64,000 nucleotides of DNA from positions 248,001-312,000 of the forward strand of contig NC_015186.1 in assembly GCF_000202835.1 (NCBI RefSeq), read 5' to 3'. Shown in pieces: positions 2,246 to 9,030 of the stretch. The position numbers and the translations under genes are program-made. The stretch comes from Acidiphilium multivorum AIU301. GTDB lineage: Bacteria; Pseudomonadota; Alphaproteobacteria; Acetobacterales; Acetobacteraceae. Each line of letters begins with the position of its first letter. The first letter of the stretch is position 1. A model generated the notes under the pieces. The model was not told the DNA's origin and did not search any database. It saw nothing but the letters and a program-made list of their open reading frames with translations.

Positions 2246-3163
2246 ATGCGCATTCTCGTTGTCGGCGCCGGAAGCATCGGCGGATATTTCGGCGGGCGGC
2301 TGATCGAGGCGGGGGCGGATGTGACGTTTCTCGTCCGCCCGGCGCGGGCCGCGGCGCTGGCGGAGACCGGCCTCGCGATCCGCAGCGCGAAGGGAGATTT
2401 CCACGAACCGGCGCCGAAGCTCGTCACCGCCGACCGGCTGGGACCCGCGTTCGACCTCGTGCTGCTGAGCTGCAAGGCCTATGACCTCAAGGAGGCGGTG
2501 GCCGCGCTCGCGCCGGCGGTGAGCCAGCGGACGCTGATCCTGCCCCTGCTCAACGGCATGCGGCACCTCGATGTACTGGACGCGCGGTTCGGCGCCGAAT
2601 CCGTGCTCGGCGGGCAATGCGTGATTTCCTCGGTGCTGGATGCCGCCGGCCGCGTGCTGCACCTGAACGACGCCCATATGCTGACCTTCGGGCCGCGGTC
2701 CGCCGGGCAGGAGGCGCGGGCGCGGGCGATCGCCGAGCTGTTCGGCCAGGCGGCCTTCACCACCCGGCTGAGCGACGCGATCATGCAGGACATGTGGGAG
2801 AAATGGGTGTTCATTGCCTCGCTCGCTGGCATCACCTGCCTGATGCGCGCCTCGGTCGGCGCCATCGTCGCGGCGGGCGGCGCCGGGATCGCGCTGGACC
2901 TGGCCGCCGAATGCGCCGGCATTGCCGCGCGCCACGGGTTCGAACTGCGGCCGGCCGCCGCGGCGCGGCTGAAGGAGTGGCTGGCGACAGAGGGATCGCC
3001 GATGACCGCCTCGATGCTGCGGGACATGGAACAGGGCGGGCGGATCGAGGGCGAGCACATCATCGGCGACCTGCTGCGGCGGGGCGAGACGGCGTCGTGC
3101 CCGTTGCTGGCGGTCGCCAACACCCATCTGCGCGCCTACGAGATTCGCCGCGCCGGCGCCTGA
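2246..3163 (+). CDS. panE: 2-dehydropantoate 2-reductase family protein
   Basis: NADPH-dependent ketopantoate reductase, the step giving D-pantoate in coenzyme A synthesis. The 305-residue protein starts with the Rossmann signature VVGAGSIGGYFGGRL. It has the LLSCKAYDL segment before the central region, LLNGMRHLDVLDARFG, and the C-terminal helical domain with the MWEKWVFIASL element that carries the family's catalytic lysine. A GAGGAGCA ribosome site precedes the ATG. Its 3' end overlaps the convergent gene by 28 bases. Paralogues that reduce other 2-oxoacids are common, so the exact substrate is less certain than the family. Confidence 0.8.
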   Translation: MRILVVGAGSIGGYFGGRLIEAGADVTFLVRPARAAALAETGLAIRSAKGDFHEPAPKLVTADRLGPAFDLVLLSCKAYDLKEAVAALAPAVSQRTLILPLLNGMRHLDVLDARFGAESVLGGQCVISSVLDAAGRVLHLNDAHMLTFGPRSAGQEARARAIAELFGQAAFTTRLSDAIMQDMWEKWVFIASLAGITCLMRASVGAIVAAGGAGIALDLAAECAGIAARHGFELRPAAAARLKEWLATEGSPMTASMLRDMEQGGRIEGEHIIGDLLRRGETASCPLLAVANTHLRAYEIRRAGA

Positions 3164-3771
3164 CGGATAGCCCGGCTTGCGGCCGGGCGGGCGTGGACGC
3201 CGAGCGACTCTGCATCGTCGAGATCGGTGAGCGGGCGCAGCAGGGCGACTCGGTGGCGGGGAAAGTTGCGCAGCGTGTCTGCCAGGGCGTGCGGCGAGGA
3301 CCAGCGAACGTCGCGGAACGGCGCGGCGGGACGCCGTCCGGCGAGTCCGATCAGCCAGTAGCCGCCATCGGTCGCCGGGCCGAACACGGCCTGCGCGCCG
3401 CGGAGCCGGCGCAGCGTGCCCCGCAGGTCGGCGGCGGTGATGCCCGGAATGTCGCTGCCGATGATGATGACGGGCCGGCGCGGGTGGCGGCGGAACACGC
3501 GCAGCATTCGCGCGCCGAGATCACCCCGTCCCTGCCCGGTGCGAATGAAGCCGGGGGTAGCGAGGCGCGCGTGGTGGTCCGGGGTGGCGGCGAGATGGCG
3601 GACGACACCGCGAAGACGCCGCATTTCGCGCAGCAGGCCGGACAGCATGATTCGCGACAGGCGCCAAGCCGCGCGGTCCCCCACCGTGCGGGCGAGCCGC
3701 CGCTTGCCGACGCCGAGGCGGGGGATGCGGCTGAAGACGACGATGACGGGGAGGCTCACCCGCGTCGCCAT
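3136..3771 (-). CDS. DUF2064 / TIGR04282-type glycosyltransferase
   Basis: A 211-residue GT-A-fold nucleotidyl/glycosyl transferase of the DUF2064 group, often labelled arsenosugar biosynthesis glycosyltransferase (TIGR04282). The N-terminus VIVVFSRIPRLGVGKRRLAR matches the family's nucleotide-binding start, and VIIIGSDIPGITAADL and GPATDGGYWLIGL are the two other hallmark blocks. The ATG at 3771 overlaps the stop of the upstream oxidoreductase gene by 16 bases; a GTG at 3759 in a GTGA overlap is an equally compact alternative. It is the last gene of the minus-strand set that contains a radical SAM fusion and a TVP38 fusion. The acceptor is unknown; the arsenosugar label comes from family naming, not from an ars gene nearby. 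Confidence 0.78.
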   Translation of the reverse strand: MATRVSLPVIVVFSRIPRLGVGKRRLARTVGDRAAWRLSRIMLSGLLREMRRLRGVVRHLAATPDHHARLATPGFIRTGQGRGDLGARMLRVFRRHPRRPVIIIGSDIPGITAADLRGTLRRLRGAQAVFGPATDGGYWLIGLAGRRPAAPFRDVRWSSPHALADTLRNFPRHRVALLRPLTDLDDAESLGVHARPAASRAIRQAPARRIS

Positions 3772-5873
3772 CGGTGGAACCGCTCGAGGATCGCAAGCCC
3801 GCGCGCCGAGGCATGCGCCTGCCGCCACTGCCCGGCGACGGCGCGGATCGCCTCCGAACGGGTCGGATAGGGGAAGATCGTGCCCATCAGCTTCTTCAGC
3901 CCGAGCCCGTGCTGTATCGCGAGGGTGAAGCCCGTGAGCAACTCGCCGGCCTGGGGGCCGACGATGGTCGCGCCGAGGATGCGGTCGCTGCCCTTCCTTG
4001 TCAGCACGGTGACGAAGCCTTCGGTATCGCCCTCGGCGATGGCGCGGTCGAGCTCGGCGAAATCGTAGCGGGTGATCTCGGCTTCGATGCCCCGCGCCGC
4101 CGCCTCGCGCGCGTTCAGCCCGACGCGGGCGATCTCCGGGCTGGTATAGGTCACCGCCGGCACCGCCCGGTAGCTCGGGCGAAACCGCCAGAACGGGGCG
4201 AACAGCGCGCCCAGCGCGGCATATCCGCCCTGATACCCGGCCATATGGGTGAACTGGTAGGGCCCGGCGACGTCGCCGCAGGCAAAGATGTTGGGATAGA
4301 GCGTGCGCAGCCCGTCATCGGTCTCGATCGTCCTCGCCGGGGTGAGCGGAATGCCGAGCGCCTCCAGCCCGTAGCCGCTCACCCGCGGGCGGCGACCGAT
4401 GGCAACCAGCAGCCGGTCGAACGGCAGCTCGATGGTCTGGACCCCGCTGGCCGCGACGAGCGCGAACCCCGCCTCCGTGCGCGTCACCGCCTCGGCCCTG
4501 TCGCCGGTGCGGATCGCGACGCCATCGCGCGCCAGCGCCGCCGCCATTGCCGCCGAAACCTCGTCGTCCTCGCGCACCAGCAGCCGCTCCGCCATCTCCA
4601 CCAGCGTCACCGCGCTGCCGAGGCGGGCAAAGGCCTGCGCCATCTCGCAGCCGATCGGCCCGCCGCCGAGAATGACGAGCCGCCGCGGCAGGTCCTCGAT
4701 ATCCCACAGCGTCTCCGAAGTGGCATGGGGCGCCTCGGCAAGGCCGGGAATGGGCGGCACGAAGGGTTCTGCTCCGGCCGCAATCACGATGGCGCGTGTC
4801 GTGATCGGCACCCCGTCGACGGCGACGCACCAGGGCGATTCGATCACGGCCCGTCCCCGCCTGACCTCGACGCCGAGCCCCTCGTAGCGGGCGACCGAAT
4901 CATGCGGCGCGATCCCCGCGATCGCGGCGCGGACATCGGCGATCGCGGCGCGAAAATCCTTGCCCGCGCGCGCGGCGTGGAGCAGCGCCTTGGACGGCAC
5001 GCAGCCGGAATTGAGGCAGTCCCCGCCCATCTCGCCGGCCTCGACCAGCGTCACCTTTGCCTTCACCGCGCTGGCGACATAGGCGGCGACGAGCCCGCCG
5101 GCGCCGGCGCCGATCACCACGAGGTTGCGGTCGAACCGCTTCGGCCGGCGAAACCGCGCATAAAGCCTGCGGGTGGCTAGCGCGTCGCGCAGGCGCGGGG
5201 CCGCGAGCGGCAGGGCGGCGAGCAGCAGCAGGCCGATGACGAGGCGCTGCGTGAGGATCGGACCATGCCCGCCGAGTGTCGCGAGCGAGGCGCCGGCATT
5301 CACATAGATCAATGTCGCCGGCAGCATGCCGATCTGGCTCGCGAGGTAGAAGCTGCGCAGCCGCAGGCTTGTCAGCCCCGCCAGCAGGTTGACCGCGAAG
5401 AACGGCACCACCGGCGCCAGCCTGAGCGAGACGAGATAGAACGCCCCGTCGCGGGCGATGCCCCGCTCGATCCGCTCGAACAGCGCGGGGAAGCGGGCGA
5501 GGGCGAAATCCCGCAGCAGGAAGCGGGCGGCGAGAAACGCAAGACTCGCGCCGATCGACGAGGCGAAGGAGACCAGCACCGTCCCCTCCGCCACGCCGAA
5601 CAACGCGCCGGCGCCGAGCGTCAGCACCGCCGCCCCCGGCACCGAGAGCGAAGTCGCCGCCACGTAGAGCCCGAAATAGAGGAGGAACCCGGCGAGCGGA
5701 TGCGCCGCCACCATGCCGCGCAGCCCGGCGAGATCGCCCTCCAGCCGCGCGATGCCCAGCCCCTGGCGCTGCAACGCCACCACCAATGCGACCAGCGCCA
5801 GCGCCAGTGCTGCGAAGCCGAGCGCCCGCGCAGTGCCCCGCCGCCCCGCGCGGCCGACCGTCGTCGTGCTCAT
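3756..5873 (-). CDS. TVP38/TMEM64 membrane domain fused to pyridine nucleotide-disulfide oxidoreductase
   Basis: A 705-residue two-part protein. Residues about 15-230 form a VTT/TVP38 membrane domain with several hydrophobic segments and the family block LAPVVPFFAVNLLAGLTSLR. Residues about 245-700 are a mercuric reductase/lipoamide dehydrogenase-like flavoenzyme: FAD motif GAGAGG, redox pair Cys286/Cys291 in GGDCLNSGCVPS, a second dinucleotide fold GGGPIGCEMAQAF, an FAD block ACGDVAG, and a C-terminal dimer domain ending FPYPTRSEAIRAV. It lacks the C-terminal Cys pair of true MerA. I chose the ATG at 5873 because GAGGTAAG lies 9 bases upstream; it starts 8 bases beyond the previous gene's stop. 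The membrane tether suggests electron delivery to a membrane or quinone partner; the substrate is unknown. Confidence 0.85.
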   Translation of the reverse strand: MSTTTVGRAGRRGTARALGFAALALALVALVVALQRQGLGIARLEGDLAGLRGMVAAHPLAGFLLYFGLYVAATSLSVPGAAVLTLGAGALFGVAEGTVLVSFASSIGASLAFLAARFLLRDFALARFPALFERIERGIARDGAFYLVSLRLAPVVPFFAVNLLAGLTSLRLRSFYLASQIGMLPATLIYVNAGASLATLGGHGPILTQRLVIGLLLLAALPLAAPRLRDALATRRLYARFRRPKRFDRNLVVIGAGAGGLVAAYVASAVKAKVTLVEAGEMGGDCLNSGCVPSKALLHAARAGKDFRAAIADVRAAIAGIAPHDSVARYEGLGVEVRRGRAVIESPWCVAVDGVPITTRAIVIAAGAEPFVPPIPGLAEAPHATSETLWDIEDLPRRLVILGGGPIGCEMAQAFARLGSAVTLVEMAERLLVREDDEVSAAMAAALARDGVAIRTGDRAEAVTRTEAGFALVAASGVQTIELPFDRLLVAIGRRPRVSGYGLEALGIPLTPARTIETDDGLRTLYPNIFACGDVAGPYQFTHMAGYQGGYAALGALFAPFWRFRPSYRAVPAVTYTSPEIARVGLNAREAAARGIEAEITRYDFAELDRAIAEGDTEGFVTVLTRKGSDRILGATIVGPQAGELLTGFTLAIQHGLGLKKLMGTIFPYPTRSEAIRAVAGQWRQAHASARGLAILERFHRWRRG

Positions 5874-5880
5874 GTCCGTC

Positions 5881-7620
5881 TTACCTCGCACTCATGCAGG
5901 AGGATGCGCCAAACACGCAGAACCGCGCGCAATGCGGATGATCGAGCGTGACCGCCCGCGATGCGTTCTCCAGCGTGGCGCCGAGATCGAATCGCGCTTC
6001 ATAGGGCAGCAGCGTGCAGGCGACGATGGAAAGCGCCTCCGCCCCCTTGCGCTGCACCACCATGCGCGAGGTGCGGCACATCGCATCCGCCCCGCGCGGC
6101 CGCAGCGCCGCCCAGGCGGAAGCGCTCACGCCCGCCGCCGCCGCCGGCACGTCCATCTCCGGGAACAGCACGAGATGTTCGGGGTCGAACGCGTCGATCT
6201 CCCAGCCTTGCGCCGCGAACAGCCGGGCGAACCCCGCCCGCGTCGCCGCCTCGTCCTCCACCGCCGGGTCGAACCGTGCCGCGATCGAGGGCTGGAACCC
6301 GGAAGCGAACAGCGCGCCGATCCCCTCCAGCGCCGGCCCCCAGGCGCGTTCGCCGCGCAGCGCCGCATGGCCGGCCTCGGTATGATGATCGAGCGAGACG
6401 CGCAGATGCAAATCCCGCCCCCGCCACCCCGAGATCGCCGCCATGTGGTGGCGCATCGGCGTCATCGCGTTGGTCAGCACCAGCACCCGATAGCCCCTGT
6501 CGAGTGCCATGCCGATCAGCGCCTCGATATCCGGGTTCATGAACGGCTCGCCGCCGGTCAAGCCGATCTCCCGTAGCTCGGGATGGCGGTTCGCCGCCTC
6601 GTCCAGCACCCGCCGGAACCCGTCGAGCCGCAGCCAGGCGAGGCGGTCGTTGCGCGGTGAGCTTTCGATGTAGCAGCCCTCGCAGGCGAGATTGCAGAGC
6701 GTGCCGGTGTTGAACCAGAGCGTCTCCAGCCCTTCGAGCGCGACCGTGGCATCCGCCGCCGGCGCGCATTCCAGCCGCGTCGCCGTCGCCGCCCGCTCGG
6801 CATGCGGCAGGATGTCGAGATTGGGCCAGATCCCGCTCTCCAGCGTCCCGGCATACTCCTCCGGCAGCCCGGCGCTGCGCATCGCCGCCGCCGCCGCGTG
6901 ATGATCGTAGTCGAGCGGATGCAGCACGATCTCCAACCCGGCGTCGGTGGGGGAGACGATCGAATACCAGCAGCGCGGCGTGCCGTCATTCGCCGGCATG
7001 CCGATCGCCCCGGCATTGTGCCAGACCAGATCGCCGATCCGCCGGGTGAAGCCGATGCCGCAATGCCCGGCGATCACCCCGTCGCAGCCGGTGATGCCGA
7101 TCTCCCTTTCCAGCACGAGATCGGGGTCGGAGGCGAAGAGGAAGCGGTTGATCCGGCTCGGCGCGCCATGCACCACCGCCAGACGCCGCCCGCCGATCAC
7201 GAGGTCGATCCGCCGGGGCAGGGCGGCCATCCAGCGCCGCGTCGCGTCGTCGATCCGCGCAACGGCATAGGCGAACCAGGCGGCGGCGAGCCGGTCACAG
7301 GACGAGCCTTCGGTAAAGCCGCAGCCGCAATCGGCAGCCCCCGCGCCGAGCTGCTCCTCGCAATTACCCATCACCGTCGCGATCCCGTGGTCGCGGATCA
7401 GCGCGGCGCAGGCTTGCGGATCGGCGCCATAGGCGACGACGTCGCCGGTGCAGATCATCCGCTCCGGCGGAATCCCGTGCGCCCGCGCCGCCTCCAGCAG
7501 CGCCCGCGTCGCCTGCAGATTGCTGTAGCAGCCGCCAAACACCAGCACCGGCCCATCCGCCTCGATCACCGGTACGGTCTCTGGCCCAATCGCCGGCGCG
7601 CTTCCCGCCATGTCGAGCAT
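5881..7620 (-). CDS. Degenerate metallophosphoesterase fused to radical SAM protein
   Basis: A 579-residue fusion. The N-terminal third resembles calcineurin-like phosphoesterases but with altered metal ligands: GGCYSN (29-34) replaces the usual DxHGN, GDVVAYG (59-65) is kept, GNCE (85-88) replaces GNHE, and GHCG (185-188) replaces GHTH. A short CGCGF segment follows the second motif. The C-terminal half is a radical SAM domain with the iron-sulfur ligands Cys309, Cys313 and Cys316 in CNLACEGCY, the SAM motif GLTGGEPFMNPD, and a Cys-rich C-terminus (CARFCVFGASSC) that could hold an auxiliary cluster. The ATG at 7620 has GGGGGCGGG just upstream and lies 10 bases after the MFS stop. The reaction is unknown. 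Confidence 0.75.
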   Translation of the reverse strand: MLDMAGSAPAIGPETVPVIEADGPVLVFGGCYSNLQATRALLEAARAHGIPPERMICTGDVVAYGADPQACAALIRDHGIATVMGNCEEQLGAGAADCGCGFTEGSSCDRLAAAWFAYAVARIDDATRRWMAALPRRIDLVIGGRRLAVVHGAPSRINRFLFASDPDLVLEREIGITGCDGVIAGHCGIGFTRRIGDLVWHNAGAIGMPANDGTPRCWYSIVSPTDAGLEIVLHPLDYDHHAAAAAMRSAGLPEEYAGTLESGIWPNLDILPHAERAATATRLECAPAADATVALEGLETLWFNTGTLCNLACEGCYIESSPRNDRLAWLRLDGFRRVLDEAANRHPELREIGLTGGEPFMNPDIEALIGMALDRGYRVLVLTNAMTPMRHHMAAISGWRGRDLHLRVSLDHHTEAGHAALRGERAWGPALEGIGALFASGFQPSIAARFDPAVEDEAATRAGFARLFAAQGWEIDAFDPEHLVLFPEMDVPAAAAGVSASAWAALRPRGADAMCRTSRMVVQRKGAEALSIVACTLLPYEARFDLGATLENASRAVTLDHPHCARFCVFGASSCMSAR

Positions 7621-7630
7621 TGCCCGCCCC

Positions 7631-8938
7631 CTACACGCCGCGCGCCGATGCGGCGCTGAGCTGCTCAAGGGCGAGCCCCCGCGCCTCGATCCCCCCGCGC
7701 AGCCGCCAGATCAGGATGGCAACCGCCCCCAGCGCCCAGAAGCCAGCGAGCATGACGAGTGCCGCCGGCATCGAGCGCGCGCCGACATAGCCGACCAGGA
7801 AGGGCGAGAGCGCCGCGCCCACCCGCCCCACCGCGACCGAGGCGCCGATCCCCGTCGCCCGCAGCGCGGTCGGGAACAGTTCCGAGAAGGTCGGATAGGC
7901 GGCGATCCAGCTTCCCGTCGCCAGCAGGTTCACCAGCGCGAAGCCGAGCATGATCGGCCCGGCACCGAGCCCGGTCACCAGGGCGAACAGCACGAGGCCG
8001 AGTGCGGTGGCAAGATAGAACCCGCCGACCGTCCAGCTCCGCCCGATCCGGTCGAGCAGCGACGCCGCGGCGAGCCCGCCCACGGCGGCGCCGACACTGC
8101 CGGCGAGGTAGAACAGCGGCAGCCGGTCCGCCGGCAGATGCAGCACCGGCAGCACCACGATCGGCAGGAAGGCGAACAACCCGTAATATCCCGCGGCCTC
8201 GGCGAAATCGAGCGCCGCCCCCAGCAGCAACCGGCCCGGATATTGCCGCACCAGTCGGCCGAACTGCCCCGCCTCGCGGCGGATCCGGTGCACGACCGGC
8301 ACCGCGGACGCCGGCGGCAGCGTCGTCAGCCCCGCCTCGATCCCGGCGACGATGGCGCGCGCATCCTCCGCCCGGTCGGCATCGATCAGCCAGCGCGGGC
8401 TCTCGGGCAGATGCCGGCGGAACCATGCCGCCGAAAGGGCGACCACGCCGCCCAGGCCAAACACAACCCGCCAGCCCAGATCCGGCGGCAGGGAAGACAG
8501 CACCAGCCAGGCCAGCAAGGCGGCGATGAAACTGCCCAGCGGCCAGAAATTCAGCACGATCGCCGCCGCCCGCCCGCGCGAGCGGCTCGGCACCAGCTCG
8601 GCGATCGCTGCGTTGATCGCCGAATATTCCGCGCCGACGCCGATGCCGCCGAGCAGCCGCAGCACCAGCAGGGCGGCGAGATTGGGCGCGAAGGCGGTGG
8701 CCAGCGTCGCCACGCCATACAAAACGAGGCTGGCCAGAAACACACGCCGCCGCCCAAGGCGGTCGGACAGCGCGCCAAACCCCGCCGCCCCGATCATCAG
8801 CCCGACGAACCATGCCGCGAGAATCACCGACATCGCGTTGCTGCCGAGCCCGAAATGCTGCCGCAACGCCCCCAGCACATTGCCGATCAGCGTCACCTCG
8901 AACGCATCCAGCGCCCAGCCGAGGCCGAACAGCAGCAC
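7631..8938 (-). CDS. MFS transporter, sugar/organic acid type, possible frameshift at N-terminus
   Basis: A 12-helix major facilitator carrier of the inner membrane. It has the helix 2-3 loop motif GALSDRLGRRRVFLAS, the helix 4 stretch LLGGIGVGAEYSAINA and the mid-loop PESPRWLID typical of sugar/aromatic-acid proton symporters. The open frame's first usable start is a GTG at 8938, which lies inside transmembrane helix 1. In-frame codons continue upstream through LSELSWNRFHTTA, a normal MFS lead-in. The best start, an ATG at 9030 behind AGAGGATCG, is one base out of frame, with a run of six G (9006-9011, plus strand) in between. It is first in a minus-strand set with the radical SAM gene and divergent from the sugar-acid genes, so its substrate could belong to either. 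Confidence 0.82.
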   Translation of the reverse strand: MLLFGLGWALDAFEVTLIGNVLGALRQHFGLGSNAMSVILAAWFVGLMIGAAGFGALSDRLGRRRVFLASLVLYGVATLATAFAPNLAALLVLRLLGGIGVGAEYSAINAAIAELVPSRSRGRAAAIVLNFWPLGSFIAALLAWLVLSSLPPDLGWRVVFGLGGVVALSAAWFRRHLPESPRWLIDADRAEDARAIVAGIEAGLTTLPPASAVPVVHRIRREAGQFGRLVRQYPGRLLLGAALDFAEAAGYYGLFAFLPIVVLPVLHLPADRLPLFYLAGSVGAAVGGLAAASLLDRIGRSWTVGGFYLATALGLVLFALVTGLGAGPIMLGFALVNLLATGSWIAAYPTFSELFPTALRATGIGASVAVGRVGAALSPFLVGYVGARSMPAALVMLAGFWALGAVAILIWRLRGGIEARGLALEQLSAASARGV

Positions 8939-9030
8939 CGCCGTCGTGTGGAAACGGTTCCAGCTCAGCTCCGACAGCGTGTGCAGGAGATGACTGTCCG
9001 AGGGAGGGGGGCGGAAGGGCGCCTGGTCAT

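Follow-up and report, generated by a model that had tools for sequence, protein, structure and literature searches.

A locus resembling arsenosugar loci in Acidiphilium multivorum carries a radical SAM family outside ArsS

In marine life, arsenosugars are a major form of organic arsenic. The bond between arsenic and their ribose carbon is known to be formed by the enzyme ArsS. Two papers describe arsenic as being adenosylated by a radical S-adenosylmethionine (SAM) enzyme during arsenosugar biosynthesis (PMC12159101, citing Cheng 2021; PMC8552651). Here we analyze a stretch of 64,000 nucleotides from Acidiphilium multivorum AIU301 (contig NC_015186.1, positions 248,001 to 312,000), called the window below, which contains a four-gene locus that we read as working like an arsenosugar locus, yet whose radical SAM enzyme is outside the ArsS family. 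All four open reading frames (ORFs) are on the minus strand and each overlaps the next. They encode, in order, a major facilitator superfamily (MFS) transporter, a metallophosphoesterase-like domain (MPE) fused to a radical SAM domain (rSAM), a VTT membrane domain fused to a flavin adenine dinucleotide (FAD) oxidoreductase, and a DUF2064/TIGR04282 glycosyl- or nucleotidyltransferase (GT1). The original prediction had described four compact genes on one strand, which ORF and domain calls confirm, and had proposed the biosynthesis of a modified sugar or a metalloid-containing small molecule, still the best reading of the locus. It had also remarked on the arsenosugar label of DUF2064 proteins; this label is not a stray name, as the same rSAM family adjoins ArsM-like genes in other genomes.

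Genes of the same kinds surround ArsS itself. The class sample comprises 289 genomes of the same class, that of the window included, and in its two ArsS loci (L070 and L184; L and G numbers designate our loci and genomes) the order is GT1, VTT/FAD fusion, ArsS, purine-nucleoside phosphorylase (PNP), and a second glycosyltransferase (GT2, TIGR04283), plus a convergent MPE gene. The VTT/FAD fusion, predicted to be one of two unusual fusions, is thus no oddity; it also has the same form in the rSAM loci L094, L095, and L097. Among the ArsS loci from a phylum sample covering 130 genomes, L197 groups ArsM, GT1, GT2, FAD, VTT, and ArsS with a divergent PNP, L201 has GT1, GT2, FAD, VTT, and PNP, and one or two of these helpers occur in each of L194, L196, L202, L203, and L204. 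When the helper-bearing ArsS loci (L070, L184, L197, and L201) are compared with the rSAM loci, the pattern is that of one enzyme replacing another in the same pathway.

The window rSAM exceeds no NCBIfam cut-off. Its best score is with the Rv1681 family (NF049973), at 97 bits against a cut-off of 380 and over the core alone, followed by ArsS (TIGR04167), at 55.7 bits against a cut-off of 300; the best ArsS match in the genome reaches 55.5. Since the score that defines ArsS is not attained, rSAM is not a member of that family. NF049973 matches all 19 rSAM members scanned, with the lowest E-value among the families listed, and our literature search found no paper that combines Rv1681 with radical SAM. 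What rSAM has in common with ArsS is the CX3CX2C motif (C25-x3-C29-x2-C32, invariant in alignment A4 and spaced identically in alignment A3) and a profile-profile alignment with a probability of 99 and an E-value of 6e-18, whose 263 columns reach the C-terminal cysteine motif. However, identity in that alignment is about 20%, the ArsS motifs SLPCY..N.D.QRG and TGGAPE are SLD.....H...RG and TGGEPF in rSAM, and the 16 ArsS rows form a separate, fully supported side of a 138-row tree. Against the profile of the window's rSAM family, the rSAMs of L205-L207 reach 188-213 bits, compared with 32-47 against the ArsS profile. Identity between the window rSAM half and 34 measured relatives is 46-55%. 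In a predicted model of the whole fusion (mean pLDDT 86.7, pTM 0.56), the rSAM half matches the SPASM/twitch-type enzymes BlsE, SuiB, and SkfB by Foldseek. The window rSAM has an alanine at a nearly invariant cysteine (the C218 column of A4), which may give it a C-terminal cluster unlike that of the rest of the family. In-frame stops that might have indicated selenocysteine were set aside: the G095 match ends at the stop of its own ORF, and the G280 and G022 matches also reach query residue 594. A literature search covering few subscription papers found none on the rSAM family, the MPE/rSAM fusion, or DUF2064; TIGR04282 is mentioned, and TIGR04283 was not found.

In line with the original prediction, the families are adjacent in relatives and co-occur across the class sample. 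A search with the fusion protein gives matches in 86 of the 289 genomes, three of them (G014, G147, and G053) on the phosphoesterase half only, which leaves 83 with rSAM, a lower bound as no more than four candidates were scored per genome. GT1 is found in 79 of the 83 and so is GT2, with four exceptions each. The two transferases occur jointly in 101 of the 289 genomes and each alone in 5, bringing GT1 to 106. With kinship ignored, Fisher's test gives p 6e-42 for rSAM with GT1 and the same for rSAM with GT2, and a further co-occurrence p-value in the rSAM/GT1/GT2 set is 1e-64. Among the 79 genomes that hold both rSAM and GT1, the two are less than 10 kb apart in 11. ArsS scores over its cut-off in two class genomes from one genus, neither of which has rSAM. 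In the phylum sample, ArsS is present at E 1e-30 in 65 genomes (63 over cut-off) and rSAM in 9, no listed genome carrying both. Within the window's own family, all three other sampled genomes lack rSAM, GT1, and GT2. The 1.2 Mb genome G098, rated 100% complete, has rSAM (43% identity), MPE (40%), and weak GT1 and GT2 matches, which suggests a basic metabolite or role for the rSAM family.

The link to arsenic comes from ArsM-like methyltransferases. These adjoin rSAM in sphingomonads, in genomes G167 and G116, and also in G294 and G375 of the phylum sample, and lie in or near the rSAM loci L043, L053, L103, L119, L131, L148, L152, L160, L174, L205, and L207. On one strand, L207 reads GT1-GT2-ArsM-rSAM-VTT/FAD, and L205 reads GT1-ArsM-rSAM followed by a methylthioadenosine phosphorylase (MTAP). 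NF008823 provides an independent ArsM model, counted over the class genomes with kinship again ignored. At E 1e-40 it matches 18 of 289 genomes, 14 of them rSAM carriers (hypergeometric p 1e-5). A threshold of E 1e-25 gives 25 carriers among 31 genomes, with many of the weaker matches partial, and the cut-off itself gives 5 of 6. A profile of the ArsM type found in these loci exceeds 500 bits in five of the 289. Each of the five has rSAM, in three cases at the same locus, but the count is biased: four of them contributed rows to the profile, three having been picked for ArsM beside rSAM, and only G137 is new. In G093, G194, G196, G208, G281, and G287, ArsM-like genes have one in-frame TGA inside the match and are possibly selenoproteins.

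The MPE half is a departure from its fold family. Classical metallophosphoesterases hold two metals with the motifs D-x-H, GD, GNH, H, and GHxH. In an alignment of 24 members (13 fusions and 11 stand-alone proteins, two of the latter coming from ArsS loci), the first motif, as aligned to 3rqz, has become G-x-Y, with the glycine in all 24 and the tyrosine in 23, and GHxH, matched by eye, has become GHxG with its second histidine gone throughout. GD76, N102, H167, and H202 are retained (numbered from the TTG start in the window), and a cysteine triad, C114, C116, and C124 (C-x-C-x7-C), is invariant in all 24. By these motifs, the binuclear site that characterizes PF00149/PF12850 appears incomplete. 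By Foldseek, the MPE half of the predicted model is nearest to the diadenosine tetraphosphate (Ap4A) hydrolase SapH (3qfm, E 6.3e-15); the two have a common fold, and MPE differs by G-x-Y, GHxG, and the added triad. From these residues, the ligands of one of the two metals seem to have been lost and a thiol site added, so that MPE is likelier to be a carrier or sensor than an ordinary phosphatase. Activity as an Ap4A hydrolase was set aside, as ligands in the metal-binding motifs are missing. The fusion to rSAM, also predicted to be unusual, in fact recurs: MPE is fused ahead of rSAM in 13 of the 119 labelled rSAM loci, the window included, and lies directly behind it in 10. A distant MPE-like protein (L206:10423-11382) keeps CGC without the third cysteine; close to it lie a distant rSAM and a VTT/FAD fusion. 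That the MPE/rSAM fusion belongs on a plasmid was considered and dropped, since the case comes down to two places in one plasmid record, and the place examined covers the MPE half.

Linkage was counted in 80 named rSAM loci, the best 80 of at least 573 relatives, within 5 kb of rSAM and with FAD and ArsM matches below 35% identity excluded. GT1 and GT2 are each found in 24 of these loci, FAD in 23, MPE in 16, a short-chain dehydrogenase/reductase (SDR) in 13, VTT in 10, ArsM in 7 (one of these, in L157, of the ordinary type), and MFS and PNP in 4 each, the MFS loci all being among the six closest relatives. The 138-row tree requires a minimum of 15 changes for the glycosyltransferase link, 12 for FAD, 7 for ArsM, and 6 for the MPE fusion, although it was built by a quick method, has poor support at 55 of its 130 inner branches, and includes some contigs twice. 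Because of these changes, the partner links must have been gained or lost repeatedly rather than inherited as a single arrangement. The remaining 39 of the 80 loci, some on short contigs, have none of the searched partners within 5 kb, which counts against a shared pathway and in favor of chance or relaxed clustering of the four genes, with rSAM modifying a peptide or an RNA and MPE acting as an ordinary Ap4A hydrolase. The folds lend themselves to this as well, with the SPASM/twitch-type matches of rSAM on one side and SapH on the other. Nevertheless, we consider it improbable, given the near-complete co-occurrence of rSAM with the glycosyltransferases, the repeated independent linkage on the tree, the ArsM genes that adjoin rSAM, and the missing D-x-H metal ligands of MPE.

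Two other arrangements were seen around these families. In sphingomonad loci (L101, L103, L112, L131, L148, L160, and others), a divergent SDR lies between GT2 and FAD; it is thioester-reductase-like in L112, and ArsM adjoins it in some relatives and was not found in others. Away from rSAM, in L075-L093, GT2-GT1 repeatedly adjoin four further genes, grouped by sequence clusters, which we take to encode SplB/PA0069-like radical SAM, MoaB-like, uracil-DNA glycosylase, and ETF-QO proteins. These were set aside as pathway parts and provisionally read as conserved chromosomal order.

Our preferred reading, which we hold with about even confidence, is that the locus provides the greater part of an arsenosugar-type pathway, in which a separate rSAM family, fused here to a degenerate phosphoesterase-like domain, takes the place of ArsS. 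A number of further observations weigh against it. The profile comparison of rSAM with ArsS was run without an unrelated twitch radical SAM control, and because the distant members in L205 and L207 give no listed ArsS match at E 1e-14, rSAM is not clearly nearer to ArsS than to other SPASM/twitch enzymes. With the queries used, 10 of the 17 phylum-sample ArsS loci show no helper, so the common helpers are not general to ArsS. The GT1 proteins of L205 and L207 fall under the TIGR04282 cut-off, and 23 class genomes have GT1 and GT2 without rSAM, only two of them with ArsS, some rSAMs having possibly been missed in this group with four candidates scored at most. All four ArsM-like proteins scanned are under every NCBIfam ArsM cut-off, 69 of the 83 rSAM genomes have no NF008823 match at E 1e-40, and only 5 of the 83 have the ArsM type found beside rSAM. 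Lastly, as the original prediction had noted of the locus, no ArsM is found there or anywhere in the window genome (NF008823 at E 1e-25; locus-type profile at E 1e-30), nor was ACR3 found (ArsB was not sought). Several of these results would also suit a set of rSAM, GT1, GT2, and VTT/FAD enzymes that makes an arsenic-free glycosylated metabolite, such as a 5'-adenosylated carbon, sulfur, or selenium compound, arsenic being recruited only in the lineages that gained ArsM. We see this as a serious possibility, if short of an even chance: only 14 of the 83 rSAM genomes have an ArsM-like match at E 1e-40, the window genome has neither ArsM nor ACR3 matches, and the presence of the family in so small a genome as G098 suggests a basic metabolite. 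On the other hand, the same kinds of helper genes surround ArsS in some loci, and ArsM accompanies rSAM in separate lineages and above chance in the sample. The two class genomes with ArsS have no ArsM match either; absence of ArsM thus does not exclude arsenic, and the objection is softened, not removed.

Under the arsenosugar-type reading, a scheme of adenosyl transfer and glycosylation can be proposed with moderate confidence, and with less confidence that arsenic is the substrate in the window organism. By analogy with the ArsS report, the rSAM half would cleave SAM and put the 5'-deoxyadenosyl group on a soft nucleophile; where ArsM lies alongside, a trivalent methylarsenical would take this part, as it does with ArsS. 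A methylthioadenosine or purine-nucleoside phosphorylase, in the locus in other genomes and unlinked in that of the window, would then strip the adenine, and GT1 and GT2 (the latter also unlinked here) would glycosylate the remaining 5'-substituted ribose. The adenine-removal and glycosylation roles are assigned from general knowledge of these families. At the membrane, the VTT/FAD fusion may keep a substrate, metalloid, or thiol carrier reduced, the MPE domain with its cysteine triad may pass the metalloid or another soft ligand to rSAM, and the MFS protein would transport the substrate or the product. Our data show the content and order of the genes, their co-occurrence, the lack of overlap with ArsS in the sampled genomes, and the linkage of the family to ArsM-like, phosphorylase, and glycosyltransferase genes in other genomes; the catalytic steps, the part played by MPE, the direction of MFS transport, the membrane-bound electron donor raised in the original prediction, and arsenic as the substrate in this organism are all inferred. 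We suggest, only tentatively and as a rather unlikely extension, that rSAM is a second, non-orthologous family of radical SAM enzymes forming carbon-arsenic bonds, common in the sampled alphaproteobacteria, in which ArsS is nearly absent, and that MPE is a repurposed phosphoesterase whose triad brings a trivalent arsenical or other soft ligand to the radical site, the fusion uniting carrier and enzyme as a single chain.

The boundaries of the genes are given in Table 1. The span 3136-9030 originally proposed contains the right gene set, but its upper end is not the start of the MFS gene: the ATG at 9030 begins a reading frame just 21 codons long, and in the MFS frame no ATG, GTG, or TTG precedes the GTG at 8938, the first standard start. 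The MFS protein scores 189 bits with TIGR00895, under the cut-off of 418.55. The MPE/rSAM fusion starts at TTG 7668 or ATG 7620, and translation of GT1 probably begins at an inner ATG near 3774.

Table 1. Features of the four-gene locus (window coordinates)
Feature	Position	Strand	Evidence and remarks
MFS transporter, AAHS/sugar-transporter type	8938-7631	-	MFS_1 (PF07690) 8e-39; Sugar_tr 2.7e-37; 5' end uncertain
MPE/rSAM fusion, whole ORF	7668-5881	-	Metallophos_2 + Radical_SAM
MPE half, degenerate metallophosphoesterase-like domain	6769..7668	-	PF12850 2.5e-07, residues 50-231; Cys triad C114/C116/C124
rSAM half, CX3CX2C and Cys-rich C-terminus	5881..6768	-	PF04055 7.5e-14, residues 320-459
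VTT (TVP38/DedA-like) membrane domain + FAD/NAD(P) disulfide oxidoreductase	5891-3756	-	PF09335 5.1e-21 (88-201); Pyr_redox_2 PF07992 9e-62; Pyr_redox_dim PF02852 3.3e-30
GT1, DUF2064/TIGR04282 CofC-like glycosyl/nucleotidyl transferase	3136-3828	-	PF09837 3.3e-30, 104.8 bits; TIGR04282 137.3 bits (cut-off 134)

The nearest relative in the named collection is L094, whose rSAM half is 95% identical to that of the window. DNA identity between the two is 91.9% and is confined to 8964-3754, the flanks differing on both sides. Because this identity starts only at 8964, the MFS gene of the window appears to lack its native 5' end. Both edges coincide with the ends of the MFS-to-FAD cassette, as if a block had moved or recombined. 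L094 has GT2 and no GT1 match, the reverse of the window, which has GT1 without GT2; in L095 and L097, which keep the window's gene order, both are present (MFS-MPE/rSAM-VTT/FAD-GT2-GT1). The GT2 of the window genome is found unlinked at C6:2722089 (173 bits against a cut-off of 182), as is a PNP_UDP_1 protein, a phosphorylase of the right superfamily, at C6:3582164 (156 bits). A MerA assignment for the VTT/FAD protein was rejected, its 328 bits with TIGR02053 being below the cut-off of 454.45, though the redox motif GGDCLNSGC is retained.

Taken together, the rSAM loci suggest that some bacteria have a second route to arsenic-sugar-like molecules or to chemically close relatives of them. If rSAM does the job of ArsS, then surveys based on ArsS miss most of the carriers in this class (83 of the 289 genomes have rSAM, and 2 have ArsS). 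If instead rSAM does not use arsenic, then about a third of the sampled class (106 of 289 genomes with GT1) carries a gene for which the NCBI name arsenosugar glycosyltransferase misleads. The MPE family also raises the question of which ligand is bound by a phosphoesterase fold that has no D-x-H and three invariant cysteines. Finally, the arsinothricin cluster arsQML differs from the rSAM loci in being a three-gene core without glycosyltransferase, VTT/FAD, or phosphorylase genes, and resembles them in that a radical SAM enzyme, ArsM, and a transporter are brought together to make an organoarsenical (PMC8552651).

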